Below are positions 4,596 through 32,418 of a DNA stretch of 64,000 nt, piece after piece. Under the pieces are notes generated by a model, which was given only the letters and a program-made list of their open reading frames with translations, was not told where the DNA came from and searched no databases. The position numbers and the translations under genes are program-made. The stretch's first letter is position 1; each line of letters begins with the position of its first letter. The DNA is from Thiohalobacter thiocyanaticus (GTDB lineage: Bacteria; Pseudomonadota; Gammaproteobacteria; Thiohalobacterales; Thiohalobacteraceae), in NCBI RefSeq assembly GCF_003932505.1, contig NZ_QZMU01000001.1, forward strand, positions 620,001-684,000, in the 5' to 3' direction.

Positions 4596-4666
4596 CGTCA
4601 TCCCCGCGCAGGCGGGGATCCAATAACCGCGGTGGTTTATGGATTCCCGCCTGCGCGGGAATGACG
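4596..4666. repeat. dRS3-like inverted-repeat pair
   Basis: Second copy of the 157-227 element. Arms CGTCATCCCCGCGCAGGCGG and CCGCCTGCGCGGGAATGACG are separated by a variable centre of about 20 bases. Confidence 0.8.
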
Positions 4667-4698
4667 GGAAGGGGATAATCAGAGTTTTCTGGGGCATA

Positions 4699-8145: not shown

Positions 8146-8237
8146 GCCGGATCGGTCCGTATGGGAAACTGTGCTATCATACGCGCCCTGTCACCAGGGT
8201 GAAACCGCCCGCCCAGCATACAAGACCGCGCCTTTTT

Positions 8238-9941: not shown

Positions 9942-10832
9942 TCAGGGCTGGCTGGCCAGCCGCTGTTCCCCGTTGGGGTCCATCTCGGTTCCGGTGCCGG
10001 CATAACGCTGCACCAGGTCATAGTCGGCCACCGAGTCCACATCCACGGCGGCGTTGGCATAGGGCAGGATCACCGCGCCGAGGCGCAGGCCCAGATGCCG
10101 GGACAGGCGCGACAACGCCGCATCCAGGGTCAGCAGGCCCAGCCGGTAGCGGATCACAGCCCACCAGCCGAGCAGACCGATCACCAGCAGCGGCTTCTTG
10201 CGCTGGTTCTCGATCCGGCGCCAGAAATCGGCAGCGCGGCGGCCCTCCGGTGTCATGAAGGCGAACAGGTTGCAGCCGCAATAGTTGCCGTCGCGGAACC
10301 GCAGCACGGTCTTCTTCAGGTCCGGATAGCGTGATTTGACCAGTTCATAGGGCGCCAGTCCGACGAGCACGTCACACTGCGCAGCCACGCTGTCACGACA
10401 GAAGCGGTCGACGATCTCGCTGGTCAGCAGGGGATGATCGGCCGTGGTGATCAGTACGGGATTCGCGTCGGGCATCTCCGAGAGCATGCGGTAGGCGCTG
10501 GTGCTGGGCGAGGCCTCCGGCGGCGACCAGGCCAGCCGCTGCTGGTCGATCTCGCGGGCAAGCCCGGCGTCGCTCTGCACGCAGCCCGAATCCGGCCCGC
10601 TGAGGCGGATGCTGCCCACACTGTCCGCACCGCGCAGGGCGCTGATGACCCGGTGGATCATCGGCACGCTGCTGATACGCAGCAGGGCCCGGCAGGCCAC
10701 CCCGGAATGCTCGCGCAGGGCATCGCGCCGGCTACGCTCGCCGGCCAGGATCACACAGGTGAAACGCGGTGAGGCGGCCGGTCCGGCCGTTGGGTCCTGT
10801 GCCTTCAGGGGATCTGAGGGGTGATTGTCCAC
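9942..10832 (-). CDS. MobA/NTP-transferase-like nucleotidyltransferase
   Basis: A 296-residue protein with a GT-A/NTP-transferase layout: the N-terminal strand FTCVILAGERSRRD, VPMIHRVISAL near residue 57, and a metal-binding-type VLITTADHPLLT. Family members transfer a nucleotide to a sugar-1-phosphate or cofactor. The usual Gly-rich GGxSxRxGxxK loop is altered (GERSRRDALREHSG) and the following Lys appears replaced by Arg, so activity is uncertain. The C-terminal half (LLGWWAVIRYRLGLLTLDAA) could associate with membrane. I infer a GTG start at 10832, 7 bases after the stop of the upstream ceramide-synthase-like gene; no ATG fits. Confidence 0.68.
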   Translation of the reverse strand: MDNHPSDPLKAQDPTAGPAASPRFTCVILAGERSRRDALREHSGVACRALLRISSVPMIHRVISALRGADSVGSIRLSGPDSGCVQSDAGLAREIDQQRLAWSPPEASPSTSAYRMLSEMPDANPVLITTADHPLLTSEIVDRFCRDSVAAQCDVLVGLAPYELVKSRYPDLKKTVLRFRDGNYCGCNLFAFMTPEGRRAADFWRRIENQRKKPLLVIGLLGWWAVIRYRLGLLTLDAALSRLSRHLGLRLGAVILPYANAAVDVDSVADYDLVQRYAGTGTEMDPNGEQRLASQP

Positions 10833-10839
10833 GCCCGGC

Positions 10840-11988
10840 TCACAACGACTTCTGATAGACCCGGTAACGCTTGTAGATCCGGCTGCCGATCGCTTCGATG
10901 ATATGCCGCATACCGGCATTATCCTCCAGGATCCACCCCATCTCAACTGTCTGAACCCCCCGTTTGATCATGGCCTCGCGCACCGCGTCGATCACCAGAA
11001 AGGCCAGGGTCGGGCCCAGCCGCGAGAACTGATGCTCCCGGCGCACCCCCATCAGGGCCACCCGGGTGGTGCGGGGCCGCCGGACCTTGAGCCGCCACAG
11101 CAGCCGGGCCCAGCCCAGGGGCAGGACCCGCCCGTTCAGGTCGCGGATGGCCTCGTTGATGTTGGGCAGGGCCACGATGAAGGCCACCGGCCGCTCGTCG
11201 ATCTCGGCAATCTGGACGTAATCGTGATCCAGCAGCAGGGTGAGCATCTTCGCGACTTCGGCGAACTCGGCGCGGGTAAAGGGCACGAAGCCCCAGTTGC
11301 CGGACCAGGCGTCATTGAAGATGTCGCGCATGGCCTCGAAATCCGCCGCCTTGCGCCTGCGGTCGAGCGGCCGTATCCGCACCCGGCGCAGCGCCCGCCG
11401 GGCCAGCTTCTGCATCACCTCGGGGGCGGTGAAGTCGGGCCGCACCGTGTAGGTCAGCAGGTCCTTCACCCCGGCAAACCCCTGTTCCTCCAGGCGGGCC
11501 TGATACCAGGGCCGGGCATGCCCCATCATGATGTAGGGCGGGTCCTCGAAGTTCTCCACCAGCAGGCCGATTTCCTCGTTGATGGAGAGGTTGTAGGGGC
11601 CGCGGATCCGGGCCGCGCCCTGTGTCCGCAACCAGTCCTGCGCCGTTTCCAGCAGGGCGGCGAACACCGCCGCATCGTCCTCGGCCTCGAGCATGCCGAA
11701 GTAACCGAGCCTGTCACCCTCGACCGGTGGCTGCAGACGATCCAGCTGGGCGGTGATCCGCCCCACCGGCCGGTCGCCCCGGTAGGCGACCCAGGCCCGG
11801 ACCTCGCTGTGCTCGAACAGGGGATGGTTGTGAAACACCCGCTGGCGCTGCTCCAGGTGCAGCGGCGGCACCCAGGCCGGGTCGTCGGCATAGAGGCGCT
11901 CCGGCAGGCGCAGGAAATCCTTCACCGTCGTCCGGTCCCGGGCCTCGATGATGCGCAGCCCCCCGCTGTCCGTCCCCGCACTGGTCAT
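10840..11988 (-). CDS. GNAT-type N-acyltransferase, bacterial ceramide synthase (bCerS)-like
   Basis: A 382-residue protein. Its N-terminal half matches a family often annotated only as N-acetyltransferase: LPERLYADDPAWVPPLHLEQ, then HPLFEHSEVRAWVAYRGDRP with GRITAQ, an acetyl-CoA-type strand. The C-terminal half has IVALPNINEAIRDLNGR and a basic stretch. This architecture is that of the ceramide synthase found in Caulobacter (CCNA_01212), which N-acylates 3-ketosphinganine; I assign it by recall of family features. ATG 11988 is preferred; upstream in-frame Mets exist at about 12009 and 12036. It heads a minus-strand run with the nucleotidyltransferase-like protein and the oxygenase, and diverges from the acyltransferase at 12177. 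Confidence 0.68.
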   Translation of the reverse strand: MTSAGTDSGGLRIIEARDRTTVKDFLRLPERLYADDPAWVPPLHLEQRQRVFHNHPLFEHSEVRAWVAYRGDRPVGRITAQLDRLQPPVEGDRLGYFGMLEAEDDAAVFAALLETAQDWLRTQGAARIRGPYNLSINEEIGLLVENFEDPPYIMMGHARPWYQARLEEQGFAGVKDLLTYTVRPDFTAPEVMQKLARRALRRVRIRPLDRRRKAADFEAMRDIFNDAWSGNWGFVPFTRAEFAEVAKMLTLLLDHDYVQIAEIDERPVAFIVALPNINEAIRDLNGRVLPLGWARLLWRLKVRRPRTTRVALMGVRREHQFSRLGPTLAFLVIDAVREAMIKRGVQTVEMGWILEDNAGMRHIIEAIGSRIYKRYRVYQKSL

Positions 11989-12176
11989 GAACAATCCTGT
12001 CGCCTTGAACCGCATGAATCCGTGAAACAATCCCGCCATCATACCGTAACCGCTGCGGTGGAACCCAGTGCCGCGGCCCGGATTTGATCTTTTTGACCCC
12101 CTCCGGCACACTCCTTTTCCCGCGCATTCCCACCCCGATATCAGGCCCGCGGAACGGGCACAGGAAGCACTCAGAC

Positions 12177-13178
12177 TTGGCCAAGTTCATCCTCGGCAAC
12201 GCGCTGCGCAAGAAGGCGCTGGACAACAGCGTGCTGCGCCATACCCTGTGGCTGCTCGACCTGCTGGTGATCGGCCTGCTCTACAGCCTGTTCCGGCTGC
12301 TGCCGGTGACCTGGGCCTCGCGCACCGGCGACTGGCTGGGCCGGCGTATCGGTCCCTGGTTCAGAAGCCGCTGTGACCACATGCGGGCCAATCTCGGTCT
12401 GGCCTTTCCCGACAAGAGTCCGCAGGAAATCGAGCAGCTGCTGCCCGAGATCTGGGGCAATGCCGGTGCCGTGCTGGGCGAGTACCCGCATCTGGCAAGG
12501 ATCGTCGATCCACGCCACGATCATCTCGAACTGGTCTTCGAACACGAGATTCCCACCTACAGCGATCCCACGCAGCCAGCCGTGTTCGTCACCGCGCACA
12601 TCGCCAACTGGGAGGCGGCCGGGGCGGCCCTTTACCGTTACCGGGTACCCTTGTCTGTGCTGTATTCCCCCCTGGCCAACCCCTGGCTGGACCGGCTGTT
12701 GCGGCGCTCCCGCCTGGCGCTGGGCTGCGAGTTAATTTCCCGCGAGGCCAGCATGCGCCCCTTCGTCCAGGCCCTGAAGGAAGGCCGCTCGGTGGCAATG
12801 ATCATGGACCGTCGCATCGAAGCCGGCACGCCGATTCCCTTCTTCGGCGCGGACAAACCCTCCTCCACCCTGGCCGCGCGTCTGGCACTGAAGTTCGGCT
12901 GCCCCCTGGTGCCGGTCGAGCTGGAACGGCGCGAGGGTCCCCGCTTCACCATCACCTTCCATGAACCCCTGTTACCGGCCAACCCGGACGCCGACGCGGA
13001 GACCCAGGCCCGGGACCTGACCCGCCAGATCCACCGGCATTTTGAGCAGTGGATCACACAACGGCCAGGGGCCTGGTTTTGTTCGAAAAAAATCTGGTCC
13101 AGTGCTATACTTCGCGCACATCGGGGTGGCAATGTTACCCTGTCCACAGCTTCCGAACAGCGCACAGATCACAGGTAA
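12177..13178 (+). CDS. LpxL/HtrB-like lysophospholipid acyltransferase (copy 1)
   Basis: A 333-residue membrane-associated acyltransferase of the LpxL family. One hydrophobic helix lies near residues 25-45 (LWLLDLLVIGLLYSLFRLL). The catalytic HxxxxE is HIANWE (H141, E146). Downstream are LYSPLANPWLDRLL, the substrate-binding IMDRRIEAGTPIPFFG and the C-terminal FEQWITQRPGAWF. Family members transfer acyl chains to lipid A precursors or other lipids. I prefer the TTG at 12177, with AGGAAG about 9 bases upstream, over the ATG at 12084, whose first 30 codons look unrelated. The last ~40 codons (SAILRAHRGG onwards) do not look like the family and overlap a candidate promoter for the next gene. Confidence 0.8.
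   Translation: MAKFILGNALRKKALDNSVLRHTLWLLDLLVIGLLYSLFRLLPVTWASRTGDWLGRRIGPWFRSRCDHMRANLGLAFPDKSPQEIEQLLPEIWGNAGAVLGEYPHLARIVDPRHDHLELVFEHEIPTYSDPTQPAVFVTAHIANWEAAGAALYRYRVPLSVLYSPLANPWLDRLLRRSRLALGCELISREASMRPFVQALKEGRSVAMIMDRRIEAGTPIPFFGADKPSSTLAARLALKFGCPLVPVELERREGPRFTITFHEPLLPANPDADAETQARDLTRQIHRHFEQWITQRPGAWFCSKKIWSSAILRAHRGGNVTLSTASEQRTDHR
13082..13111 (+). promoter_or_regulatory. Candidate internal promoter for the hydroxylase gene
   Basis: A TATACT -10 (13106-13111) with a weak TTCGAA -35 at 18 bp spacing lies within the poorly conserved 3' end of the acyltransferase, about 78 bp before the hydroxylase ATG. Confidence 0.3.
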
Positions 13179-13188
13179 CCCCTTAAAG

Positions 13189-13824
13189 ATGTCGGCCAAC
13201 CGCACAGCGAGTGCCCAGTCGCGCGAGCAGTCCATCCGGCTGTTTGACAATCCGTTGCTGGAAGCCCTCAGTCATGTTCATCCCATCATGCCGTTGCTGG
13301 TATGGCTGCCGGTGGCTGTGTGGCTGCTGGTGCGTGCCGTCACCGTGCACGGGATCGGGCCCATCGGACTGGCCGGCATCGGCATCGCCGGTCTGGTCAC
13401 CTGGACCTTCGCCGAATACACCCTGCACCGCTTCGTCTTCCACTACCCGGCCAGAAGCCGCCTGGGCAAACGCTTCGTGTTCCTGTTTCACGGTGTCCAT
13501 CACGACACCCCACAGGACAAGACCCGACTGGTGATGCCGCCGGCAGGCGCGGCCCTGATCCTGGGCGTACTGTGGCTGCTGTTCAGCAGTGTGCTGCCCC
13601 ATCCCTGGGCCGAGCCCTTTACCGCCTTCTTCCTGCTCGGCTACCTGGTCTACGACTACATCCACTACGCCACGCACCACTTCCCGATGCGTCACCCGGT
13701 GCTGCGTTTTCTCAAGCAGTATCACATGCATCATCACTTCTCCGCCGACGCCGGGCGTTACGGTGTCAGCTCTCCGCTCTGGGACCGGGTGTTCGGCACC
13801 TACCTGCCGCCGCGCGGGCGCTAG
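13189..13824 (+). CDS. Fatty-acid hydroxylase / sterol desaturase family membrane enzyme
   Basis: A 211-residue integral membrane di-iron oxygenase. Hydrophobic segments lie at about 33-50, 57-75, 115-135 and 145-160. The histidine boxes are complete: HRFVFH (H80, H85), HGVHH (101-105), HYATHH, and HMHHH near the end. The order and short length match Scs7/FA2H-like fatty-acid 2-hydroxylases, which hydroxylate the N-acyl chain of ceramides in eukaryotes. In this locus 2-hydroxylation of a ceramide acyl chain is a natural inference. ATG 13189 was chosen because it precedes the first conserved segment; the upstream extension belongs to the acyltransferase overlap. Confidence 0.85.
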   Translation: MSANRTASAQSREQSIRLFDNPLLEALSHVHPIMPLLVWLPVAVWLLVRAVTVHGIGPIGLAGIGIAGLVTWTFAEYTLHRFVFHYPARSRLGKRFVFLFHGVHHDTPQDKTRLVMPPAGAALILGVLWLLFSSVLPHPWAEPFTAFFLLGYLVYDYIHYATHHFPMRHPVLRFLKQYHMHHHFSADAGRYGVSSPLWDRVFGTYLPPRGR

Positions 13825-13872: not shown

Positions 13873-14838
13873 ATGCCGAAGTATTACCTGCTGCCCAAGC
13901 GCCTGGCCAAACGCGCTCCCTGGACGCAACAGCCGGTCTGGCTGCTGGAGGCCCTGGTATTCTACAGCCTCTACGGACTGGTCCGGCTGCTGCCCTTTGC
14001 CCTGGCCGCCGCCTTCCTCTCCCGCCTGCTCGGCAGCCTCGGCTACTGGAACGACAAGAAGCGCCGGGTGGTACGCCGCAATCTCGAGTTCGTACTGCCC
14101 CAGCTCTCCGCCGCCGACCGCGACGGGTATGTCAGACAGGTCTTTCGCTGCACCGGTCTGGCCGCGGCCGAACTGTTCCTGCTGGACCGGCTGTGGAAGC
14201 ACAGGGACCGCTTCCTGGAATTCGACGTTCATCCGGAGGCCATGCAGGCATTCGAACGGCGTGAGGCCATGGTGTTCGCCACGGCGCATGCCGGGGCCTG
14301 GCAGCTGACCAACCTGATCAGCCGCGAATACGGCCTGAGCATCTCCATCCTGTATGCCCGCGAGGCCAACCCCTGGCTGCACCGCTTCTTTCTGCAGCGG
14401 CGGCGGGCCTTCGGTTCGCGCCTGGTGCCCAGCACCGGCGGCGTGCGCGAACTGATCCGGGAGCTGGGCGCCGGCCACAGCGTGGGCGCGGCCTTCGACA
14501 CCCGCATCGATTCGGGCGAGATGATCCCCTTCTTCGGCGTACCGGCCCCGACCAACACCACCCCGGCGCGGCTGTCGCTGCGCGGCTATCCGCTCATTCC
14601 CATCCGCTGCGTGCGCCTGCCGGGCCAGCGCTACCGCATCGAGGTGCTGGCCCCGCTTGCCCCCGCCGATCCGCAGGCCGGGCGCCAGGAGCAGGTGCGG
14701 GAACTGACCCTGCGCCTGAACCGGTTGTTCGAGGACTGGATCCGGGAATCGCCGGGCGACTGGCTGTGTATGAAACGCCGCTGGCCCAAGGACGCGGAGC
14801 CGGCCGCTGGCGCCGACGCGCAGGGATCAACGTCATGA
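13873..14838 (+). CDS. LpxL/HtrB-like acyltransferase (copy 2) with Gln in the catalytic motif
   Basis: A 321-residue paralogue of the acyltransferase at 12177. It has an N-terminal hydrophobic helix (about 23-48), then the expected catalytic block TAHAGAWQLTN. Here the histidine (H139) is followed four residues later by Gln144 rather than the usual Asp or Glu. Downstream features are intact: LYAREANPWLHRFF, FDTRIDSGEMIPFFG and FEDWIRESPGDWLC. The Gln could lower activity or mark a changed chemistry. It lies 48 bp after the hydroxylase, and its stop overlaps the start of the third ELM1-family gene (ATGA), so the three are one operon. The acceptor lipid is not known. Confidence 0.8.
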   Translation: MPKYYLLPKRLAKRAPWTQQPVWLLEALVFYSLYGLVRLLPFALAAAFLSRLLGSLGYWNDKKRRVVRRNLEFVLPQLSAADRDGYVRQVFRCTGLAAAELFLLDRLWKHRDRFLEFDVHPEAMQAFERREAMVFATAHAGAWQLTNLISREYGLSISILYAREANPWLHRFFLQRRRAFGSRLVPSTGGVRELIRELGAGHSVGAAFDTRIDSGEMIPFFGVPAPTNTTPARLSLRGYPLIPIRCVRLPGQRYRIEVLAPLAPADPQAGRQEQVRELTLRLNRLFEDWIRESPGDWLCMKRRWPKDAEPAAGADAQGSTS

Positions 14839-16262: not shown

Positions 16263-17972
16263 TCAGGCCTGCAGCTCGACCCGACCGCGCGGCTCCAGCC
16301 GGTAGACCCGGTCGGCCGCCTCGGCCAGGGCGGTGTTGTGGGAGATGGCCAGGATGGTCAGCCGCGTGCGCAGTTCACGCAGGGTGGCGACGATGGCCTG
16401 TTCACTGGCCGGATCCAGCGCGCTGGTAGCCTCGTCCAGGATCAGCAGCTGCGGCCGGTTGATCAGGGCCCGGGCGATGGCGATGCGCTGACGCTGCCCC
16501 CCCGAGAGGCGTCCCCCGCGTTCCCCGACCTGGGTATGAATCCCCTCCGGCAGCCCCTCGACGAATTCCCAGGCACCGGCGTCCTGGAGGGCCTGGATCA
16601 CCCGCGCCTCGTCGATGTCGGGATCACCCAGGGTGACGTTGTGCAGGATGCTGTCGTGCAGCAGCACTGTCTCCTGCGGCACATAACCGATCTTGCGCCG
16701 CCAGGCCTTGAGATCGAGCTGATCCAGCGCCATCCCGTCAATGCGCACCTCGCCGACCCCGGGCCGCAGCAGGCCGATGAGCAGATCGATGATGGTGGTC
16801 TTGCCCGAGCCCGAGGGCCCGATGAGGGTGGTGATGCTGTTTACCGGAATGTCCAGATCGAGGCCGGAAAAGACCGGATGCCCGTCATAGGCGAAATCGA
16901 CCTGCTCGAACCGGATCCCCTGGCGCAGCACCGGCTCCGCCCCGCCGCCCAGCGGCTCCTCGGCCCGGCGGGCCTGGTCGATGGTATCCAGCAGCGACCA
17001 GTAGGCGCTCTCGCCCTGCATCAGCTTCTGGTACTGCTTCTGCACCTTGCCCAGGAAGCTGAAGGCACGCCCCAGCGCCACCACCAGCACCATCACCGTG
17101 GCCAGGTCCATGGAGAACTGCTCCAGGGCCAGGTACACACCCAGGGCGATGAAGGCGGTGAACATCAGGTCCTGGGCGGAATTGAGCGCGGCGGCGCTGA
17201 ACACCTGCCGGCGCAGGGCCTTGTTGAGCTTGTTGGTCTCCAGGTTGAGCACCCGGTCGGCCAGTTCCTCGCGGGCCATGGCCTTGAGCGGCTTGACCGA
17301 CTGCAGGGTATCGGTCAGACGCGACATCAGCGAGATCATCAGCTGGGTCTGTTTGCGCCCGGCGCGGCGGGTGATGCGCACCAGGAAATGCGAACCGCCG
17401 ATGATGAGCACGCCGGCGATCAGACTGACCAGGGCCGCCCGCCAGGACACGGCCACGGCCACGCCGGCGTAGACCAGCGACTGGATCAGGAAGGTGATGG
17501 CGGTCGCGCCGTTGACGTAGGCATCGGAGGCGCGCTGGGCCTCGGAGGCCATGGTGTTGGTCAGCTTGCCCACCGGCTGGTGCAGGAAGAAGGCCCAGCG
17601 GCTGCGCATCATGTGACGCAGCACGGCCAGACGCAGGTCGGTGGCCAGCTGCGCGGCGGTATAGCCCACCTGGCGCTGGGCCAGTAGCAGCAGCAGCGCC
17701 TTGAAGGTCGAGGCCACCACGATCAGCAGCAGCAGCGGCCCCAGGGTCGGCGGGATGCCGAGCCAGGCAAGCAGATCCAGAACCATCAGCTCCAGCTCGC
17801 CGGGCGGTTCCTGCGGGCCGCTTCCGGGTTCATTGTGATACAGCGCGACCTTGAGCACCGGCAGCAGCGCCGACAGCCCCAGTCCCTCGGCCAGCCCCGA
17901 CAGCAGCAGCGCGACCAGCATCAGGAAACTGGCCAGCGGGTAGGCACGGAACAGATTGAGCATCAGGCGCAT
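16263..17972 (-). CDS. MsbA-like ABC exporter half-transporter
   Basis: A 569-residue fused membrane/ATPase half-transporter of the ABCB type. The first ~310 residues hold about six membrane segments. The nucleotide-binding domain shows Walker A GPSGSGKTT, the Q-loop YVPQETVLLH, the signature LSGGQRQRIAIARAL, Walker B LLILDEATSALD and the switch histidine in AISHN. Dimers of such proteins flip lipids such as lipid A-core across the inner membrane. It is separated from lptG by a 350-bp repeat region but points the same way as the sphingolipid operon, so it may flip the lipid made here. Whether it is the housekeeping MsbA cannot be told from this window. Confidence 0.87.
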   Translation of the reverse strand: MRLMLNLFRAYPLASFLMLVALLLSGLAEGLGLSALLPVLKVALYHNEPGSGPQEPPGELELMVLDLLAWLGIPPTLGPLLLLIVVASTFKALLLLLAQRQVGYTAAQLATDLRLAVLRHMMRSRWAFFLHQPVGKLTNTMASEAQRASDAYVNGATAITFLIQSLVYAGVAVAVSWRAALVSLIAGVLIIGGSHFLVRITRRAGRKQTQLMISLMSRLTDTLQSVKPLKAMAREELADRVLNLETNKLNKALRRQVFSAAALNSAQDLMFTAFIALGVYLALEQFSMDLATVMVLVVALGRAFSFLGKVQKQYQKLMQGESAYWSLLDTIDQARRAEEPLGGGAEPVLRQGIRFEQVDFAYDGHPVFSGLDLDIPVNSITTLIGPSGSGKTTIIDLLIGLLRPGVGEVRIDGMALDQLDLKAWRRKIGYVPQETVLLHDSILHNVTLGDPDIDEARVIQALQDAGAWEFVEGLPEGIHTQVGERGGRLSGGQRQRIAIARALINRPQLLILDEATSALDPASEQAIVATLRELRTRLTILAISHNTALAEAADRVYRLEPRGRVELQA

Positions 17973-18323: not shown

Positions 18324-19391
18324 TCACCAACGCAGTCTCATAAGCAGCACCGAGGCGGCAAGAAAAATGCAGACCACGGGAAACACCGCCGTGGCCAGCG
18401 GCGGCAGATGATAGATCTGGCCCAGCGCGACCAGGATCTGTGAGCCCAGATAGAAGAGCACGCCGACCAGCACGCCGGCGGCCAGCTGCCGGCCCATGCC
18501 GCCGCGCTGGCTGCCGGGTTTCACGCTCAGGCCCAGGGCCAGCAGCGCCATGCCGACGGCCGCGAGCGGCAGCATCAGACGGTTCCACAGCGCCAGGGCA
18601 TGGGCGTGCGCACTCTGGCCGCTGCGCTGCAGGTAGTCCTGGTAGGCGTAGAGCACGCTGGGCGGCATGCTGTCCATGCCGAGCAGCAGGCGCTGCAGCT
18701 CGTCGCGTGACCACAGCCGGTCCACGATCAGCCCCGGCTGGCGCTGCAGGCTCAGCTCGCCCGCCTCCCAGCGTCGCACCTGCGCGTCCTCGAGTTGCCA
18801 GCGCCGCCCCTCGATCACCCGGGCCTGCTCGGCGTGGATGGCACGCAGCAGCCGATGGTCCGGGCCGAACTCGAAGATATCGATATCACCCGGGGATTGA
18901 TTGATGCCCAGACGGCCGAGCCGGTAGAAGGTCCGGCCGCTGCGCGACCACAGGCTCTGCCCCGGTTCCAGGGTGTTGTTGCCGCGGGCCTCGCTGCGGA
19001 TCTCCTCGCCCCACTGGTGCAGAGGTGCCGTGACCCATTCCATCGCCCCCCACAGCAGCAGACACAGTACCAGCAGCGGCAGCATCAGCGAGCGCAGCAG
19101 CCGGGCCTTGTTCACGCCGGCGGCGCGGATGATGGTCATCTCATTGAGCTGCTCCAGCCGGGCGAAGGCGGTCAGGGTGCCCACCAGCACGATCACCGGC
19201 GTGAGCGTGAGCAGTTGCTGCGGCAGGGTCAGCAGCACATGCAGGACCACCTGGCCGGTGGTGTAGCTGTCGGTGACCCGTTCCAGCTCCTCGATCAGGC
19301 GCACCAGCAACAGCAGCACACCCATCACGGTGGCGAACAGCAACCACCCTGCAACCATATGTCCGGTCAGATAGCGTCTCAGCGTGCGCAT
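18324..19391 (-). CDS. lptG: LptG-like permease (LptF/LptG family)
   Basis: A 355-residue inner-membrane permease. It starts with a membrane segment (GWLLFATVMGVLLLLVRLIEE), followed by two more (LTPVIVLVGTLTAF, MLPLLVLCLLLWG), a periplasmic beta-jellyroll (about 130-260) and three C-terminal segments. This is the LptF/LptG architecture. With LptB2 and LptC these proteins extract lipopolysaccharide and push it across the periplasm. It begins 3 bp after the lptF stop. LptF/LptG normally sit by pepA; here they end an operon with serine palmitoyltransferase, so they may be relocated housekeeping genes or paralogues for sphingolipid export. LptG rather than LptF is assigned from gene order and motif impression. 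Confidence 0.8.
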   Translation of the reverse strand: MRTLRRYLTGHMVAGWLLFATVMGVLLLLVRLIEELERVTDSYTTGQVVLHVLLTLPQQLLTLTPVIVLVGTLTAFARLEQLNEMTIIRAAGVNKARLLRSLMLPLLVLCLLLWGAMEWVTAPLHQWGEEIRSEARGNNTLEPGQSLWSRSGRTFYRLGRLGINQSPGDIDIFEFGPDHRLLRAIHAEQARVIEGRRWQLEDAQVRRWEAGELSLQRQPGLIVDRLWSRDELQRLLLGMDSMPPSVLYAYQDYLQRSGQSAHAHALALWNRLMLPLAAVGMALLALGLSVKPGSQRGGMGRQLAAGVLVGVLFYLGSQILVALGQIYHLPPLATAVFPVVCIFLAASVLLMRLRW

Positions 19392-19394
19392 GGA

Positions 19395-20516
19395 TCAATG
19401 CGCCCTCTGGCCGGGAGACAGCGCAGGCGGGCGTCGCCGCAGCTGTCGCAGCCGCTCCGGCGCCATCAGCGCCAGCAACAACAGCAGCGGCGGGACATAG
19501 GCGATCCACAGCCCCGGCACCGGTGGCAGTGTCGCCTGTTCCACCAGGGTACGCACCATACTAACTTCGGCGAACAGCAGCAGGTAGATGAACAGCGCCA
19601 CCACATTCGGGCGCAGGCGCGACTCCCGCGGTTTCGAACGCGCCAGCGGGAAGGCCAGCAGGGTCAGCAGAAAGGTTGCCAGCGGCGTGGACAGGCGCCA
19701 CTGGTATTCGGCGATGTCCTTGGGTTGATCGGAGCTTCGCAGCTCCGCCGTCGGCCGCGCCTTGCTCTTGTATTTCTCCCGGGCCTGTTCGGCCGCGCCC
19801 CAGACAATGCTCATTTCGCCGAAGCGCATGGACAGGTCGGACCGGCCCTCCGGGCCCAGCAGATAGCTGTAACCGTCATGGAATACCAGTACCGCCTCGC
19901 GCCCCGGATCGAAGCGCGGCAGGCGCGCGCTGTCGGCCCGGATCAGTTCCTTGTGCACCACGCCCTCGGCATTCTCGTGGGTGCGGAACAGGAACACGCC
20001 ACGGTGCAGCTTCTCCTGTTCGGCGCGGTCATCGGCGATGAACATGTAACCGTCGACATCCAGCGAAACGAACTGGCCCGCGGCCAGTTCGCCGGCATCG
20101 AGCCGGCTGATGGCCTGAGCCTCCAGACGGTAGATGCTGTCGTAGGCCCAGGGCCGGCCGAAGATCGACAGCAGCCCCGCCAGCAGGGCGGCCAGCAGCA
20201 CCGCCGTACCCACGCTGCGCATCAGGCGCAGAGGCGAGACCCCGGCCGAGACGAGTGCGGCGATCTCGCCGTTCTGGTACAGCCGGCCCATCACCAGCAG
20301 CACCGAGAAGAACAGCGCAGTGGGGAGAATGACTTCCAGGGTGGTGAGGCTGGACAGGCCCACCAGCTGCAGGGCCGTGGCCGTGTCGATCAGGCCGTCG
20401 GCGGCCATGGACAGGTTCTTCGACAGGCTGAAGCCGACATAGATCAGCAGGAACAGCCCCACGCCCAGCGCCAGGGGGCGCAGGATCTCACTTGCCAGAT
20501 AGCGGTCAATCAGCAC
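19395..20516 (-). CDS. lptF: LptF-like permease (LptF/LptG family)
   Basis: A 373-residue inner-membrane permease. It opens with MLIDRYLASEILRPLALGVG and LFLLIYVGF, typical of LptF, then two further membrane segments. A conserved coupling-region stretch GEIAALVSAGVSPLRLMRSV is followed by a periplasmic beta-jellyroll (about 130-270) and C-terminal membrane segments (VVALFIYLLLFAEVS, LLLLLALMAPERL). It lies 67 bp after the metallophosphoesterase gene and 3 bp before lptG, all on the minus strand. LptB, LptC, LptA and LptD are not in this window. A dedicated role in sphingolipid transport is an inference from operon membership. Confidence 0.82.
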   Translation of the reverse strand: MLIDRYLASEILRPLALGVGLFLLIYVGFSLSKNLSMAADGLIDTATALQLVGLSSLTTLEVILPTALFFSVLLVMGRLYQNGEIAALVSAGVSPLRLMRSVGTAVLLAALLAGLLSIFGRPWAYDSIYRLEAQAISRLDAGELAAGQFVSLDVDGYMFIADDRAEQEKLHRGVFLFRTHENAEGVVHKELIRADSARLPRFDPGREAVLVFHDGYSYLLGPEGRSDLSMRFGEMSIVWGAAEQAREKYKSKARPTAELRSSDQPKDIAEYQWRLSTPLATFLLTLLAFPLARSKPRESRLRPNVVALFIYLLLFAEVSMVRTLVEQATLPPVPGLWIAYVPPLLLLLALMAPERLRQLRRRPPALSPGQRAH

Positions 20517-20583
20517 GGCAGCGGTTCGGGGACAGTATCAGCCACAAAGGGCCTACTTTAACATGCCGGCGCGGCGGGAGGTT

Positions 20584-21546
20584 TCAGACAGATTGCTCAG
20601 GCGCGGCCGCCGCGGCATGCGCGCGCGGCAGGGCCGTACTCATGCGCTCGGCGCTCTCGACCCGGCCGTCCCGCGGCCGCCAGCGCCGTACCTCCAGTTC
20701 CAGTGTCCAGCCATCCGCGGCGGGCTGAATCCGGTACAGGTGGTAGGCGGCGTATTCGTCCCGGGCCGAGGAGGCCGAGGGCACACCGATCACGGGCGCG
20801 CTGCCGTCGCGGGTATCCAGTTGCAGATGATGACTCCTGTGCCCGTGGCCGTGGATCACCAGTTCCACGCCCTCGGCGGCGAGCAGTTCGCACAGCGCCT
20901 CGCCGTCGAGCAGACGCTTGCGCGCCCTGACCGTGCCCTCGATCAGGGGGTGATGCAGAATCAGCACCCGGCACAAACGCTCGGACCGGGTTTGCCGTAA
21001 CAGCTCCGCCAGGCGCCGGCGCTGCGGCTCGCCGACCTCGCCCACGGCCCGGCCGGCCGGTGAGGCGATGGCGGTGGACAGCCCGATCAGGGCCAGCGGG
21101 CCGCGCCGGCGCAGCACGGGAAAGGCCGCCCCGGCCTCGCCGTAAGGCGCATCACCATGCCAGTAGGGCGCCCAGTGCGGCGCGCCCCGCTCCCAGGCCC
21201 CGGGGACGGTCGCGTCGTGATTGCCCGGCACCACCAGCAACCTCTCGGGTGCGGCCAGCCGGTCCAGCCACAGGCGGGCACGGCGGAATTCGCTCTCCAG
21301 CCCCAGGTTGGTGAGATCGCCGCTGACCGTGATCCAGTCCGGCGCCTGCGCCCTGAGATCCTCCACCAGGGCGGCCAGGGTCTCGGGCCGGTAACGATAG
21401 CGACGGCGGGTATACCAGGACAGCAGTCCCAGCAGGCGCTTGTTGAACAGTTCGGTCGGGGGAACCCAGGCGGGCAACGGCAGGTGCGGGTCCGACAGCT
21501 GGGCCAGCACCGTGGAAGTCGGGTGGGTGGAATCCGGCATTTTCAT
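20584..21546 (-). CDS. Calcineurin-like metallophosphoesterase
   Basis: A 320-residue soluble metallophosphoesterase. The two-metal site motifs are complete and in order: LSDPHL (D19, H21), SGDLTN (D77), VPGNHD (110-111), ILHHPL, and HGHGHRSHH near 230. This matches class III phosphodiesterases, and more distantly LpxH/LpxG UDP-diacylglucosamine hydrolases. In this operon, between serine palmitoyltransferase and lptF, it could remove a phosphate or nucleotide from a lipid intermediate; the sequence does not tell the substrate. I set the start at ATG 21546 (21540 is also possible). It ends with a low-complexity Ala-rich tail of about 10 residues. Confidence 0.8.
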   Translation of the reverse strand: MKMPDSTHPTSTVLAQLSDPHLPLPAWVPPTELFNKRLLGLLSWYTRRRYRYRPETLAALVEDLRAQAPDWITVSGDLTNLGLESEFRRARLWLDRLAAPERLLVVPGNHDATVPGAWERGAPHWAPYWHGDAPYGEAGAAFPVLRRRGPLALIGLSTAIASPAGRAVGEVGEPQRRRLAELLRQTRSERLCRVLILHHPLIEGTVRARKRLLDGEALCELLAAEGVELVIHGHGHRSHHLQLDTRDGSAPVIGVPSASSARDEYAAYHLYRIQPAADGWTLELEVRRWRPRDGRVESAERMSTALPRAHAAAAAPEQSV

Positions 21547-21604
21547 ACGGCCGTGCGCGGACGCCGCAGGGGCGCGGCATCGCGCAGTCGGCGTGGCTTC
21601 AGTC

Positions 21605-22813
21605 CTAGCCGCTGCAGCAGGCCCCGGCAAAGGCCGTGCGGGAAATGGCTTCGCCGAAGGCGGCCACGATGGTCTCGATCTGTTCCGGGCTGTGGCCGGC
21701 GCTGACGCTGCAGCGCAGCAGCGAGGCACCATCGGGGGATGCGGGCGGCACCACCAGATTGACGTACACGCCGCTGGCCAGCAGTTCGTTCCAGATACGC
21801 GCGGCCTCGTCGTGGGAATCGACCCGCACCGCCACCACCGGGCTGGGTGCCGATCCCAGCCGGAAGCCCAGATCCTTGAGCCCACTGTAGAGCTGGGCGA
21901 CATTGGACCAGAGCTTTTCCCGCAGCTCGGGATGGCTGCGGACATGATCCAGCGCCCAGTGGGCCGCTGCAATGTTGGCCGGGCTGGACGAGGCGGTGAA
22001 GATGTAGGGACGACTGCCGTAGCGCAGCAGGTTGAGCTGTTCGTGCCGGCTCACGCAGAAACCACCCATCGAGCCCAGGCTCTTGCTGAAGGTGCCGGTA
22101 ATGAAATCCACCCGGTCCAGGATGCCGGCGGCCTCGGCCACGCCACGCCCCTGTTCGCCGTACACGCCCAGCGAGTGGGCCTCGTCGACCATCAGGTAGG
22201 CACCGAATTCCTCGGTGACCTCGAGCAGTTCGGCCAGCGGGGCGATGTCGCCCAGCATGCTGTACAGGCCCTCGGTGACCACGAGCGCACCGCGGGCGTC
22301 GTCGCCGAGGCGGCGCAGCCGCTTGCGCAGGTCTTCCGGGTCATTGTGACGGAAGGGGAAGAAATCGGCCCCGCTCAGGCGGCAGCCGTCATAGATGCTG
22401 GCGTGACTGTGGGCGTCGATCACCACCTTGTCGCCGGCGCGCAGCAGGCCGGTGAGGATCCCCAGATTGGCCTGGTAGCCGGTGGAGAAGATCATCGCGG
22501 CCGGCACCTCGTAGAACTCGGCAAAGCTGCGCTCCAGTGCCACGTGGCTGGCGAAGCTGCCGTTGGCCATACGCGAGCCGGTGGTGCCACTGCCCTGCTC
22601 GCGCAGGGCCTGGTGAGAGGCCTCCAGAATGCCCGGCTCGAAGGTCAGGCCGAGGTAGTTGTTGGTGCCCGCCAGGATCGTGCGCCGCCCCGCGATTTCG
22701 GCCTCGGTCGCCGACAGCATGCGCTCCATGACGATCCGGCCGGGATCGGCATCGGCCTCGTTCAGGGCGCTGCGGATGTGTTCGAGTTCGGCGAAGCGTT
22801 TTGAGATACTCAT
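21605..22813 (-). CDS. spt: Serine palmitoyltransferase-like PLP enzyme (alpha-oxoamine synthase)
   Basis: A 402-residue PLP enzyme of the alpha-oxoamine synthase family, which condenses an amino acid with an acyl thioester. The PLP lysine is K244 in TGTFSKSLGSMGGF. The aspartate and histidine of VDEAHSLG are D210 and H213, and DAHSHAS (134-140) holds the stacking histidine. GSGTTGSRM at 74-82 has Thr-Thr as in bacterial serine palmitoyltransferases rather than GGSGSR of glycine-using relatives. Its start overlaps the acyl carrier protein stop (ATGA). With the adjacent carrier protein and acyl ligase it likely makes 3-ketosphinganine from serine and an acyl-ACP. Cysteate use, as in sulfonolipid synthesis, is the main alternative. 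Confidence 0.87.
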   Translation of the reverse strand: MSISKRFAELEHIRSALNEADADPGRIVMERMLSATEAEIAGRRTILAGTNNYLGLTFEPGILEASHQALREQGSGTTGSRMANGSFASHVALERSFAEFYEVPAAMIFSTGYQANLGILTGLLRAGDKVVIDAHSHASIYDGCRLSGADFFPFRHNDPEDLRKRLRRLGDDARGALVVTEGLYSMLGDIAPLAELLEVTEEFGAYLMVDEAHSLGVYGEQGRGVAEAAGILDRVDFITGTFSKSLGSMGGFCVSRHEQLNLLRYGSRPYIFTASSSPANIAAAHWALDHVRSHPELREKLWSNVAQLYSGLKDLGFRLGSAPSPVVAVRVDSHDEAARIWNELLASGVYVNLVVPPASPDGASLLRCSVSAGHSPEQIETIVAAFGEAISRTAFAGACCSG

Positions 22814-23076
22814 GAGTTCTCCCCGAGCAGACGCTGGACCTGGATGGCAAGATCCTGCACCGTGCGGATATCCGACATAACATTCAGGGGGACGATTATA
22901 TCGAATCGGTCCTCGATTTCCTGTAGCAACTCCATCACATTAATGGAATCCAGCCCCATATCCGCCACCAGGTCGGTCTGCTCCTTCAATTCGACATTCC
23001 CGGTCGGAAACCGGGCCAACAGGGTGTACAGACCCTGCAGGATTTCCTGGTACTGGTCCCTGGCTTCAGTGGACAT
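22810..23076 (-). CDS. Dedicated acyl carrier protein
   Basis: An 88-residue acidic carrier protein. The phosphopantetheine serine is S44 in GLDSINVMELLQEIEDRFD, a clean carrier signature. It resembles AcpR, the special carrier used in Caulobacter ceramide synthesis, in size and position next to serine palmitoyltransferase. I chose ATG 23076; codons further upstream in this frame belong to the overlapping epimerase gene, whose TGA (23066-23068) lies inside this start region. Its own stop overlaps the serine palmitoyltransferase start. The probable job is to hold the long acyl chain loaded by the ligase encoded at the head of the operon. Confidence 0.9.
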   Translation of the reverse strand: MSTEARDQYQEILQGLYTLLARFPTGNVELKEQTDLVADMGLDSINVMELLQEIEDRFDIIVPLNVMSDIRTVQDLAIQVQRLLGENS

Positions 23077-24031
23077 TGGAGATGCCCTCGTTCGTGTGCG
23101 GTCGCGCCGGTACCAGCAGCGGCTGCAGGCCGTCACGCAGCACAATGGCCGGACGCCAGCCGGTGGCGCGGGTAAGGGCACTGTTGTCGCACACCCAGTC
23201 GGGATGACGCAACTCGTTGACCTTGCCCGGCGTGAGCATGGGCTGATAGCGCAGCAGCGTGGCCGCCGCCAGATTCAGCCCGGCCAGGCCGCGCAACAGC
23301 CCGCCCGGCACCGGCAGGCGCCGGCCCGGCCGGCGCCCTGTCACGGCCGCGACCGTGGCGGCGATATCGTCCCAGCTGTAGCCGCCGGGGGTACCGTCAT
23401 GCAGTTCATAGGTTCCTTCGGCCGCGCTGTCGAGCAGCTGGCCGACGGCAACCGCCAGATCATTGACGTGAAGCAGGGAGGCACGTGCCCCGGCCGGTCC
23501 CAGTACCGGGGCGATCCCCCGGGCCATGATCCGGAACAGCGGCAGCAGCTCGCGGTCGCCGGGGCCGTAGACGGCGGGCGGACGCAGCACGGCACAACGC
23601 ATGGATGAGCCCGCGGCCAGGTCGGCCAGGCGGGTCTCGCCTTCGCGCTTGCTGGCCGCATAATGCGACAGACCGGGCTCGCGCGCGGCCAGGGAGGAGA
23701 TCAGAACGAAACGCGGTGGCCGCGGCCGGTCCAGGGCCAACCGTGCCAGGCGCGCCACCCCGTCGGCATTGACCGGGCGGAAATCCCGCGCGCTGCGGCC
23801 GCGCACGCGGCCGGCCACATGCACCAGGGCATCGGCACCGGCCAGCAGGCGTTCCAGTGCAACGGTATCCTCGAGCCCGCCGCTGACGGTCTCCAGCAGT
23901 TCCGTCCCGGACGCAGTCAGACCGCGCCGGTGGACCAGGGCCCGCACCCGCCAGCCGGAGCGCAGCAGGTGATCGACCAGGGCCTGTCCCACGAAGCCTG
24001 TTGCACCGGTGACGGCAACCGTTCCCGTCAT
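23066..24031 (-). CDS. NAD-dependent epimerase/reductase, ceramide reductase (CerR)-like
   Basis: A 321-residue extended short-chain dehydrogenase. The dinucleotide loop TGATGFVG is at residues 8-14, and the catalytic pair Y124 and K128 is in HYAASKREGE, with S112/S113 just before. The substrate domain follows (VYGPGDRELLPLF). In Caulobacter the gene at this position, between the carrier protein and the acyl ligase, is CerR, which reduces the 3-keto group of the long-chain base or ceramide. The same role is likely here. The start at 24031 overlaps the ligase stop (ATGA), and the end overlaps the carrier protein start. Confidence 0.8.
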   Translation of the reverse strand: MTGTVAVTGATGFVGQALVDHLLRSGWRVRALVHRRGLTASGTELLETVSGGLEDTVALERLLAGADALVHVAGRVRGRSARDFRPVNADGVARLARLALDRPRPPRFVLISSLAAREPGLSHYAASKREGETRLADLAAGSSMRCAVLRPPAVYGPGDRELLPLFRIMARGIAPVLGPAGARASLLHVNDLAVAVGQLLDSAAEGTYELHDGTPGGYSWDDIAATVAAVTGRRPGRRLPVPGGLLRGLAGLNLAAATLLRYQPMLTPGKVNELRHPDWVCDNSALTRATGWRPAIVLRDGLQPLLVPARPHTNEGISNVH

Positions 24032-25842
24032 GCCAGACGCCGGGCCTGATCCCTGGCCGGCGCCGCCGGCCGCGCCGGCCGCGGTCCATTGACCACGGCG
24101 GCCGGCGGTGCGGCCGCCTCGGCCGCACGCCGGGCCAGGAATTCCTGGCGGGCACGCGAACGTGCGAGCTTGCCGGAAGAGGTACGCGGCAGGGTCCGGG
24201 GCGGCACCAGCTCGACGATGCAGTCGATGCCGAACTCGGCCCGCACCTGCCCCTTGATGTTCTTGACCAGCGTCTCACGCTTGAGCGGATCGCGCTCCCG
24301 GCACTGCACGACCACGGCAGCCGTCTCGTGCTGATGGTCGTCGGTCACGGCGAAGGCCGCGGCGTCGGTGAAGCGCACGCCCGGCTGCTGCTTGGCCAGG
24401 TATTCCAGATCCTGCGGCCAGATGTTGCGGCCGTGGACGATGATCATGTCCTTCTTGCGGCCGGTGACCACCAGGTTGCCGTCGATCAGGTAGCCGACAT
24501 CACCGGTATTGAGCCAGCCGTCGGGACTCATCACCTCGCGGGTGGAGGCCTCGTCCTCGAAATAGCCGCTCATCACACTCGGGCCGCGCAGATGGATACT
24601 GCCGACATGACGTTCCGGCAGCGGGTTGCCGTCATCATCGCGGATCGAGACCTCGAAGGTCGGGAGCAGCGGACCGCAGTCGACATATTTCGCCACGCGC
24701 ACGCCTTCGCGCTCGGCCGTCTCCGGATCCAGCGGCCGGGCCTCGTGCGCCTGCTGCAGGTACTCGGCATCAACGCAGTCGACCACCATCTCCTCACCCA
24801 GGGGCGCGAAGCTGATGGCGAGCGAGCACTCGGCCATGCCGTAACAGGCCACATAGGCGCGCGGGTCGAAACCGGCCGGCGCGACGGCCTCGGCAAAGCG
24901 CTGCAGCGGCTCCGGGCTGATCAGCTCGGCGCCGACACAGGCCACGCGCCAGTTACTGAGATCCCACTGTTCGGCATCCCGCGGGCGCACGCGCATGGCG
25001 GCCAGGTCGTAGCCGAAGGGCGGCGCGGAGGCGATGGTGGCGCGGTTGCGCGACATCAATTCCAGCCACTGGCGTGGCCGCATGGCGAAATCGCGGGTGC
25101 CCAGGAAGTCGACCGAACGCTGGGTGGCCATGGGCATGATGATGAAGGCCACCAGTCCCATGTCGTGATAGAAGGGCAGCCAGGAGCCGAAACGGTCCTG
25201 ATCGTTGAGCTTCAGCCCGTTCAGTGCCATGTCGTTGATGTTGGCCAGCACGGTGGCGTGGTCGATCACCACGCCGCGCGGGAAACGCGTGCTGCCGGAG
25301 GTGTACTGGATGTAAGCCGTATCTTCCGGCGCGGCCCCGGGCAGCTCGCCCGTGAAGGGTTCGAGTGCATCGAAAACGTCCGGCGTGCCCACGCAGCGCA
25401 GCTCCAGTCCGTCGGTGGCCTCTTCGAGAAAGCTCAGCCATTCCTCGGGCGCCATGGCCGCCTCGGCCCGGCAGTTCTCGAGCAGCTTGCGCAGCTGGTT
25501 GACGAAGGCCTGATGCCCGCCGATGTGTACGGTGGCCGGCAACGGCACCGGTACCAGGCCGGCATACTGGCAGGCCCAGAAGAAGCGCACGAAGTCGGGC
25601 GTCGTCTCCGCCACCAGCGCGACCCGGCCGCCCTTTTCGATCCCCAGGCCGAGCAGCCGACGGGCAAGCGCCAGGGACTGTTCGCGCAGTTCCCCGTAGC
25701 GCAGGGCGCAATAGAGCTGGCCCCGGCCGTTGTAGAAGTTCACGCCGGTCTCACCGCCAGCGGCATAATCCAGGGCTTCGCACAGGGTCGAGAAGGTGGA
25801 GGGTCGCAAAGCTAGATCATGCGAACTGCCTGTCGGCTGCAT
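24028..25842 (-). CDS. Fatty acyl-AMP ligase / acyl-ACP synthetase (AasR-like)
   Basis: A 604-residue ANL-superfamily adenylating enzyme of the fatty acyl-AMP ligase type. The phosphate loop is YIQYTSGSTRFPRGV, followed by LPFYHDMGLV, YGMAECSLAI, GWLNTGDVGYL and GRKKDMIIVHGRNIWPQDLE. The C-terminal domain ends with LPRTSSGKLARSRAR. I prefer ATG 25842, preceded by AAGGAT, over the ATG at 25896. The last ~35 residues are a Pro/Ala-rich tail. It activates a long-chain fatty acid and probably loads it on the carrier protein two genes downstream. It heads the seven-gene operon that runs to lptG. Confidence 0.88.
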   Translation of the reverse strand: MQPTGSSHDLALRPSTFSTLCEALDYAAGGETGVNFYNGRGQLYCALRYGELREQSLALARRLLGLGIEKGGRVALVAETTPDFVRFFWACQYAGLVPVPLPATVHIGGHQAFVNQLRKLLENCRAEAAMAPEEWLSFLEEATDGLELRCVGTPDVFDALEPFTGELPGAAPEDTAYIQYTSGSTRFPRGVVIDHATVLANINDMALNGLKLNDQDRFGSWLPFYHDMGLVAFIIMPMATQRSVDFLGTRDFAMRPRQWLELMSRNRATIASAPPFGYDLAAMRVRPRDAEQWDLSNWRVACVGAELISPEPLQRFAEAVAPAGFDPRAYVACYGMAECSLAISFAPLGEEMVVDCVDAEYLQQAHEARPLDPETAEREGVRVAKYVDCGPLLPTFEVSIRDDDGNPLPERHVGSIHLRGPSVMSGYFEDEASTREVMSPDGWLNTGDVGYLIDGNLVVTGRKKDMIIVHGRNIWPQDLEYLAKQQPGVRFTDAAAFAVTDDHQHETAAVVVQCRERDPLKRETLVKNIKGQVRAEFGIDCIVELVPPRTLPRTSSGKLARSRARQEFLARRAAEAAAPPAAVVNGPRPARPAAPARDQARRLA

Positions 25843-29883: not shown

Positions 29884-30957
29884 TCAAAAGCGGATATGCG
29901 TGGAATGGTTGAGGGTGTATTTCGCCCCCTTCCAGTTGTCGACGTGGAAGCGGGTGAAGGGTAGTCCGGTCTTTTCGAAGAACCGCGGCCAGCCGATCCG
30001 CTCGACCCATTCGCCGACGCGTTCCCAGTCGCGGGCATCCTCCTGGTAGCACTTCAGGATCTTCTTGACCAGGGCCGAAACCTCGGGCCAGCGTGGCGGC
30101 TTATTCGGCAGGCCGGCGGCGACCAGCTTCATGAAGCTCGGCTTGGAGCGGGCATTGGAGTTCTTGCCGCCGATCCAGATCGCCAGTTTGGAATTGACCG
30201 GGTCGTTGATCTGCATCGGCGGGCAGGGCGGATAGCAGGCCCCGCAGCAGATGCACTTGCGCTCATCGACTTCCAGCGAGGGTTTGCCGTTGACGATGGC
30301 CGGACGGATCGCGGCCACCGGGCAGCGGGCGACCACCGAGGGACGTTCACAGATATTGGCCACCAGATCGTGATTGATCATGGGCGGCTTGGTGTGCTGG
30401 ATGTTGATGGCGATATCGGCCTGCCCGCCGCAGTTGATCTGGCAGCAGGAGGTCGAGATGTGCACCCGGTTGGGCATGCGTTCGTTGACGAACTCCTCGT
30501 ACAGTTCGTCCATCAGCGCCTTGACCACGCCGGAGGCATCGGTAGCCGGGATGTCGCAATGCAGAAAACCCTGGGTGTGGGAAATCATCGACACCGAGTT
30601 GCCGGTACCGCCGACCGGGAAACCCTCATCGTTCAACTTATCGATCAGGGGGACGACCCTGGCCTCGTCACTCACCATGAACTCGATGTTGCTGCGGATG
30701 GTGAAGCGGACATGGCTTTCGCCATACTCATCGGCAATGGCGCACAGCTTGCGGATGGTGCCGGTGTCCATCTGGCGCTGGGTGCCGGCACGCACGGTCC
30801 AGATGCTGTCCCCGTTCACGGATCTGTGGTGCAGCACACCGGGGCGGCAGCGTTCATGCCAGTCCCACTGGCCATAGTTGCGGCGCATCACGGGATGCAT
30901 GTACTGGAATGGGTCTGGCACGCCGCTCTCGACGGCTTCACGATACTGATCGCTCAT
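29884..30957 (-). CDS. dsrB: Dissimilatory sulfite reductase beta subunit
   Basis: A 357-residue subunit of siroheme dissimilatory sulfite reductase. It has the DsrB start DPFQYMHPVMRRNYGQWDWH, the siroheme/cluster region TSCCQINCGGQADIAINIQH (C171, C172, C176) and a ferredoxin domain with C212 and CICCGACYPPC (about 237-245). It begins 45 bp after dsrA with GGAGAG before the ATG. Length and motifs fit the oxidative (reverse) type of purple sulfur bacteria, in which sulfane sulfur on DsrC is oxidised to sulfite in the cytoplasm. The usual downstream dsrEFHCMKLJOPN genes are missing; the next gene is the convergent protease. Confidence 0.92.
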   Translation of the reverse strand: MSDQYREAVESGVPDPFQYMHPVMRRNYGQWDWHERCRPGVLHHRSVNGDSIWTVRAGTQRQMDTGTIRKLCAIADEYGESHVRFTIRSNIEFMVSDEARVVPLIDKLNDEGFPVGGTGNSVSMISHTQGFLHCDIPATDASGVVKALMDELYEEFVNERMPNRVHISTSCCQINCGGQADIAINIQHTKPPMINHDLVANICERPSVVARCPVAAIRPAIVNGKPSLEVDERKCICCGACYPPCPPMQINDPVNSKLAIWIGGKNSNARSKPSFMKLVAAGLPNKPPRWPEVSALVKKILKCYQEDARDWERVGEWVERIGWPRFFEKTGLPFTRFHVDNWKGAKYTLNHSTHIRF

Positions 30958-31002
30958 TTCACTCTCCTCGCAATCTCTGGACTATCGGACACAGGCGTAC
31001 GG

Positions 31003-32241: not shown

Positions 32242-32291
32242 AACCTGTGACCTCCATTGCCGGCTGAATTGAACTGCCGTTACTCGGGGGA

Positions 32292-32328
32292 TGCATGTCG
32301 CAATCCACACCGCATCGGATTGCATGCA
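32292..32328 (-). other. Leader hairpin upstream of dsrA
   Basis: In the mRNA sense, TGCATGCAATCC pairs with GGATTG-CGA-CATGCA around a 10-base loop, leaving a 3-base bulge. It lies between the conserved upstream element and the dsrA start, so it would be in the transcript leader if the element is the promoter region. Confidence 0.45.
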
Positions 32329-32367
32329 CTCTACGCATACATTCTTGGCCGCCCTGACAGATAAAGG

Positions 32368-32418
32368 CAAACGATATTATTCGGCTATTTAAATCGGTAA
32401 TTCCGATATAAAAGCTGG
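32368..32418 (-). promoter_or_regulatory. Conserved upstream element of dsrAB (copy 1)
   Basis: Read towards dsrA it shares TTTATATCG, TTAAATAG and GAATAATATCGTTTG, in the same order and spacing, with the element upstream of the dsrC-like gene. It contains the dyad ATCGGAATTACCGAT, a T-N11-A motif typical of LysR-type binding sites. The LysR gene at 33540 is the obvious candidate regulator. Confidence 0.65.

Follow-up and report, generated by a model that had tools for sequence, protein, structure and literature searches.

Why should an operon that builds a ceramide backbone end with two genes for permeases of the LptF/LptG type? This question is raised by a seven-gene operon of Thiohalobacter thiocyanaticus (Gammaproteobacteria), located in the 64,000-nucleotide stretch that we analysed (the window: positions 620,001 to 684,000 of contig NZ_QZMU01000001.1, assembly GCF_003932505.1). 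The best explanation, which we consider probable on the strength of the comparisons below, is that the products of the operon synthesise a ceramide-type lipid and include an inner-membrane extractor dedicated to it, which would share LptB, LptC, LptA and LptD of the cell. The seven open reading frames (ORFs) were confirmed; they occupy positions 25842 to 18324 of the window, all on the minus strand and in the order given by the first-pass annotation of this DNA:

24028..25842, minus strand: fatty acyl-AMP/acyl carrier protein (ACP) ligase (aasR, FAAL family), first gene of the operon; 763 bits with NF006624 (cutoff 600), 46.8% identity to the ligase of the Escherichia coli BL21(DE3) ceramide locus
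23066..24031, minus strand: NAD-dependent epimerase/reductase (PF01370), candidate ceramide reductase (cerR); 45% identity to the BL21 homologue
22810..23076, minus strand: specialised ACP (acpR; PF00550)
21605..22813, minus strand: serine palmitoyltransferase (SPT, gene spt); 586 bits with NF047599 (cutoff 500), bacterial SPTs as top PDB hits (E 6e-120), 52.9% identity to the BL21 SPT
20584..21546, minus strand: calcineurin-like metallophosphoesterase (MPE; Metallophos, PF00149), no evident signal peptide
19395..20516, minus strand: LptF of the ceramide-linked clade (LptF2), GTG start; 255.5 bits with TIGR04407 (cutoff 230), tree position, clade-specific columns E61, R121 and Y125, Glu84 of the coupling helix retained
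18324..19391, minus strand: LptG of the ceramide-linked clade (LptG2); 260.4 bits with TIGR04408 (cutoff 240), tree position, coupling-helix Glu kept

The overlap of the first four genes, already remarked on, amounts to 4 bp (ligase/cerR), 11 bp (cerR/acp) and 4 bp (acp/spt), and is followed by gaps of 58 bp (spt-MPE), 67 bp (MPE-lptF) and 3 bp (lptF-lptG). A weak promoter scan of the minus strand between 15900 and 26300 gave just two sites, with 1.1 expected by chance; they lie 5ʹ of the ligase gene and 5ʹ of a downstream ABC exporter gene, and none was found between the ligase and lptG. Judged from the sequence, the seven genes are probably co-transcribed. The gene order is conserved in two further genomes of the genus, one of them a closed congener (G010), as well as in G136 and G344, which belong to another family, and every operon gene is under purifying selection (dN/dS 0.07-0.38; 0.12-0.17 for lptF/lptG in comparison to genus mates).

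Both operon permeases match PF03739 over their full length and also score above the cutoffs of the equivalog models. The genome contains four matches to this family, which form two LptFG pairs, so the operon pair was rejected as its sole lptFG. The first-pass annotation had seen a weakness for its own proposal in a genome with no other lptFG; we looked for another pair and found it at C1:2555921-2558040 (2.556 Mb), under purifying selection and clustering with the LptFG of genomes from the same family that lack spt. The operon pair, compared by phylogeny with this housekeeping copy as had been proposed, does not group with the LPS (lipopolysaccharide) pairs of related genomes and falls in a separate, well-supported clade. 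LptC is encoded once in the genome, together with kdsD, kdsC, lptA and lptB, and LptD, LpxC, LpxB and KdtA are all present. Thus, the organism combines a complete LPS route with one additional extractor pair.

To place this pair we gathered spt loci from Gammaproteobacteria and from the GTDB species set and read their gene order, which gave 94 loci, 56 of them with at least 8 kb on either side of spt (full-flank loci). LptF or LptG was present in the flanks of 33 of the 56, so their presence beside ceramide genes is not unexpected, contrary to what was first thought. In a quick tree of 87 LptF+LptG pairs, 42 of the 44 spt-linked pairs fell into one clade (SH-aLRT 99), whose 46 rows include four pairs that do not adjoin spt; in a careful tree of 52 pairs, the clade had 29 rows and support of 100/99. 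Some long branches are contained in these trees. The spt-linked pairs of the clade come from Gammaproteobacteria, Nitrospirota, Calditrichota and Thermodesulfobacteriota, and since the housekeeping pairs of Nitrospirota and Thermodesulfobacteriota are far from the clade, the LptFG pair must have moved together with the ceramide genes. Two alphaproteobacterial spt-linked pairs, one from Caulobacterales (Phenylobacterium, close to Caulobacter and used as its proxy, Caulobacter itself being outside the tree) and one from Rhodospirillales, branch outside the clade with support of 100/100, which indicates that LptFG was probably recruited beside spt twice. We also noticed that the spt locus and LptFG of L063, a metagenome-assembled genome (MAG) record titled Klebsiella pneumoniae, cluster with those of an uncultured gammaproteobacterium, and the record is therefore probably misnamed.

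The presence of the clade follows that of spt. Among the gammaproteobacterial genomes, the clade pair was held by 21 of 22 spt-positive and by none of 14 spt-negative ones; counted by genus, the figures were 15/16 and 0/14 (Fisher p about 2e-7). Many of the sampled genomes are MAGs, and gene absences, here and below, rest on profile searches. The pair is also kept where lipid A genes are missing. The complete, single-contig, spt-positive genome G331 is without LpxC, LpxB and KdtA and retains LptD, LptC, LptA and LptB; its sole LptFG is a member of the spt-linked clade. The same holds for the sole LptFG of Nitrosovibrio sp. Nv6 (G385), which is without LpxC and LpxB, in agreement with the report that N. 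europaea has just lpxK of the lipid A genes (PMC3087551). These cases represent one lineage, since the tree places G385 as the sister of G331. G136 and G344, the nearest to the operon outside the genus, have the operon-type pair only, and neither LpxB nor a full KdtA was found in them; LpxC alone was rejected as a lipid A marker because G136 has it without the other two. Where a lineage has no lipid A, the bridge must have another cargo.

Several observations weigh against a dedicated sphingolipid extractor. NCBIfam calls both operon permeases LptF/LptG equivalogs, and the genome G287 relies on an ordinary LptFG pair. G136 (also G344; loci L190, L195, L197) keeps kdsC/kdsD as well as an LpxC gene within the division cluster, an odd partial lipid A pathway. 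G270, G159, G143 and the Calditrichota genome G380 have LpxC and LpxB, yet only the spt-linked clade pair, so that this pair may carry LPS there too. Finally, MAGs of Roseovarius (L052-L056) have nearly the same cluster, from spt-MPE-ABC exporter onward, without lptFG, and hold only the usual pair elsewhere in the genome. Their SPT is 69-74% identical to that of the window, and the fatty acid hydroxylase, two LpxL-like genes, ELM1 and CerS are common to their cluster and the 9-26 kb region of the window, which suggests that the cluster was transferred horizontally and lptFG gained or lost. The coupling of synthesis and outward transport, as first proposed, was thus strengthened by the phylogeny, the co-occurrence and the lipid-A-less genomes, and weakened by the Roseovarius cluster.

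The alternative that survives best takes the operon pair for an LPS permease, either bifunctional or alternative, which would export LPS (perhaps in a modified form) in addition to or instead of sphingolipid and would be redundant in part with the pair at 2.556 Mb. The four genomes with lipid A genes and no other LptFG speak for it, as do the NCBIfam cutoffs passed by both proteins and the two LpxL-like acyltransferases encoded in the cluster. However, the clade persists in G331 and G385 despite their missing lipid A genes, it is found in none of the 14 spt-negative genomes of the tree, and the normal LPS pair of T. thiocyanaticus has been retained under purifying selection. We regard this alternative as unlikely.

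Residues of the permeases were compared with those of the canonical LptB2FGC LPS extractor (5X5Y, 6MHU, 9DOH), with which the operon pair shares the fold family over its full length and the glutamates that couple to LptB. The positions of E. coli E84 and E88 are Glu in 27 of 27 clade members examined, and such coupling-helix glutamates are needed for LptB binding (PMC5082905). In contrast to the canonical proteins, LptF of the clade has Arg121 and an acidic residue at 61 (each 46/46) and an aromatic residue at 125, none of which ordinary LptF has as a rule. The LptG positions that contact LPS phosphates are altered as well: those of E. coli K34 and K40, which contact the lipid A phosphates (PMC6744409), are acidic in 14/27 and 26/27 clade members, respectively. 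The E. coli LPS-contact lysines alone were rejected as a divider of LptG types, as they vary in ordinary LptG too. The clade-specific residues may point to a different cargo, as leads rather than proof.

On the explanation that we prefer, a dedicated extractor, the pathway would run as follows. In the cytoplasm, the ligase would load a fatty acid onto the dedicated ACP, Spt would condense the ACP-bound acyl group with serine, and CerS would attach a second acyl chain. The flippase is probably the MsbA-like ABC exporter encoded downstream, and CerR would reduce the lipid. The LptF/LptG of the operon most likely binds the LptB ATPase of the cell, forming a second LptB2FG-type extractor, which would pass the completed sphingolipid to the LptC-LptA-LptD bridge, shared with LPS, that leads to the outer leaflet, while the pair at 2.556 Mb would handle LPS. 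An LptA-like gene follows lptF directly in nine spt loci (L059, L062, L065, L072, L073, L076, L079, L099 and L113), and all three of the encoded proteins tested exceeded the PF03968 cutoff (for example L079:12428-12928). This suggests that a still fuller parallel bridge may exist in these loci.

Ceramide genes accompanied by a second LptC/LptF/LptG are known from Caulobacter and its relatives; LptC2/F2/G2 were proposed as sphingolipid transporters in 2024, with the support of a cofitness of 0.60 between mutants of LptF2 (CC_1156) and a phosphosphingolipid gene (PMC11324152). This was the only paper found in our literature search that joined LptFG with sphingolipid export. The C. crescentus region CC_1168-CC_1152 resembles the window in its five ceramide genes, in a second LptF/LptG, and in cerS followed by a nucleotidyltransferase. 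The Caulobacter-type LptF/LptG, however, belong to another lineage than those of the operon, judged by the alphaproteobacterial proxies, and the region contains a second LptC. Unlike in Caulobacter, the lptFG genes of the window end the spt operon itself, with the MPE gene in between and the MsbA-like exporter after. Clusters of Azotobacter vinelandii, Pseudomonas luteola and Nitrosomonas eutropha likewise combine ceramide genes with relatives of LptF2/G2 (PMC11324152). The gammaproteobacterial clusters were suggested to have come by transfer from Alphaproteobacteria (PMC11324152); our LptFG tree, which includes Pseudomonas asuensis, gives no support to such an origin of their lptF2/lptG2.

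In E. coli BL21(DE3), the locus ECD_02850-02854 (yghO, ligase, reductase, acp, spt) encodes the same five ceramide enzymes, and the adjacent lptG-lptF (ECD_RS14850/14855) belong to the clade of the operon pair, with E61, R121 and Y125, while an ordinary lptFG is also present in the genome. The BL21 lptGF converge on spt whereas those of the window follow it, and the annotated BL21 block is without an MPE or an ABC exporter; the flippase slot may be filled there by the product of a gene with the annotation lipopolysaccharide biosynthesis protein. At least 80% of this block (NC_012971.2 2990834-2997066) was found in 4030 of 5426 complete E. coli genomes, where the clade-type lptFG carry the annotation LPS export permease. 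With rather less assurance than for the operon itself, we incline to the broader view that the spt-linked LptFG is a dedicated sphingolipid extractor which occurs in four or more phyla and in roughly three of every four complete E. coli genomes, that it shares LptB/C/A/D and replaced the LPS pair in lipid-A-less lineages, and that it arose independently of Caulobacter LptF2/G2. As far as the literature found goes, the cross-phylum clade, its co-occurrence with spt, what appears to be a second recruitment in Alphaproteobacteria, the cases lacking lipid A genes, the LptA-like genes in nine loci, the mutually exclusive flippases described below and the homologous E. coli locus, BL21(DE3) included, are new.

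Bacterial sphingolipid flippases and transporters have been described as "not yet identified" (PMC11087976) and sphingolipid transport as "not known" (PMC11324152). For the question of how sphingolipids cross the envelope, our analysis names one extractor clade and two mutually exclusive flippase candidates. The question is directly testable, since BL21(DE3), a laboratory strain, has such a pair next to an SPT that has already been characterised.

Two further explanations are much less probable. It was considered that the synthase makes another serine-derived long-chain lipid, which the pump carries, and the nearby sulfotransferases, fatty acid hydroxylase and ELM1-like proteins do suggest an unusual head group. 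Yet the SPT, which belongs to the specialised group that uses acyl-ACP, passes a curated model, and SPTs of the same group from BL21 and Caulobacter form 3-oxo-sphinganine (PMC9386255). All five ceramide genes of Caulobacter and E. coli BL21 have homologues here (PMC9386255), so that the families and the ceramide role first assigned hold. The four overlapping genes, first taken for the complete known set, were rejected as such, since the fifth, cerS (12045-10840), lies outside the operon, downstream in the same cluster. The dedicated ACP and acyl-ACP synthetase adjoin spt (overlapping genes 25842-22810), CerR and CerS homologues are both present, and CerS is linked to spt in 39 of the 56 full-flank loci. 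In BL21, Spt, AcpR and AasR have been characterised, and YghO, orthologous to CC_1154, is the N-acyltransferase of the set (PMC9386255). Plain genomic hitch-hiking of lptFG in a mobile envelope-lipid cluster, with no functional tie to ceramide, would fit the 23 of 56 full-flank loci without nearby LptF and LptG and the Roseovarius cluster, but is made very improbable by the cross-phylum clade, the near-complete co-occurrence with spt, the apparently two origins beside spt and the retention in lipid-A-less genomes.

The cluster continues beyond the operon with the following genes:

16263..17972, minus strand: MsbA-like ABC exporter (PF00664+PF00005), candidate ceramide flippase, 351 bp past lptG
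13192..13824, plus strand: fatty acid hydroxylase (PF04116), kept in the G010, G136, G344 and Roseovarius clusters
10840..12045, minus strand: GNAT-type ceramide synthase (cerS/bCerS), fifth ceramide gene; 47.7% identity over 373 aa to E. coli YghO
9942..10796, minus strand: MobA-like nucleotidyltransferase (PF12804) adjoining cerS, in the position of Caulobacter CC_1153; neighbour of cerS in most loci

The ABC exporter (17972-16263) is part of the module. Because CerR of Caulobacter is a periplasmic protein, the lipid must be flipped (PMC11087976). A window-like ABC exporter was present in the fetched flanks of 32 of the 94 spt loci and a Wzx-like protein close to spt in 19; the two occurred together in none (p 2e-4; loci in the range L029-L128). 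The MsbA-like exporter and the Wzx-like protein thus look like two alternative ceramide flippases.

The metal-site motifs of the MPE are complete (D19, H21, GD76-77, GNH108-110, H198-H199, GH234xH236) and conserved in 27 aligned spt-linked homologues. Its AlphaFold model (pLDDT 92.6) was nearest in fold to GpdQ, Rv0805, SMPDL3 and acid sphingomyelinase, with modest TM-scores of 0.5-0.66, and an assignment as LpxH was rejected, the fold being nearer to GpdQ/Rv0805/SMPDL3. Our guess from the model is that the MPE might cleave a phosphodiester or phosphate on the lipid or on a head-group donor.

Sulfotransferases are encoded at 334-1335 and 8088-9167 of the window and LpxL-like acyltransferases at 12084-13178 and 13873-14838; together with the fatty acid hydroxylase, these two pairs of genes hint at a hydroxylated, possibly sulfated sphingolipid. 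ELM1-like proteins are encoded near the operon too. At 4627-5697 (plus strand) we noticed a remnant of C1, a gene family frequent in spt clusters; its N- and C-terminal parts match and about 165 central codons are gone, so it looks like a pseudogene. The Pfam search gave no match for C1, the Wzx-like protein or the window ORF 5978-6913. Further from the operon, two adjacent genes at 29884-32370 (minus strand) resemble, by eye from their translations, the dissimilatory sulfite reductase subunits dsrB and dsrA, so that the host is likely sulfur-metabolising. An ORF of 2894 residues at 46902-55586 (minus strand) resembles, again by eye, cyclic beta-glucan synthase.

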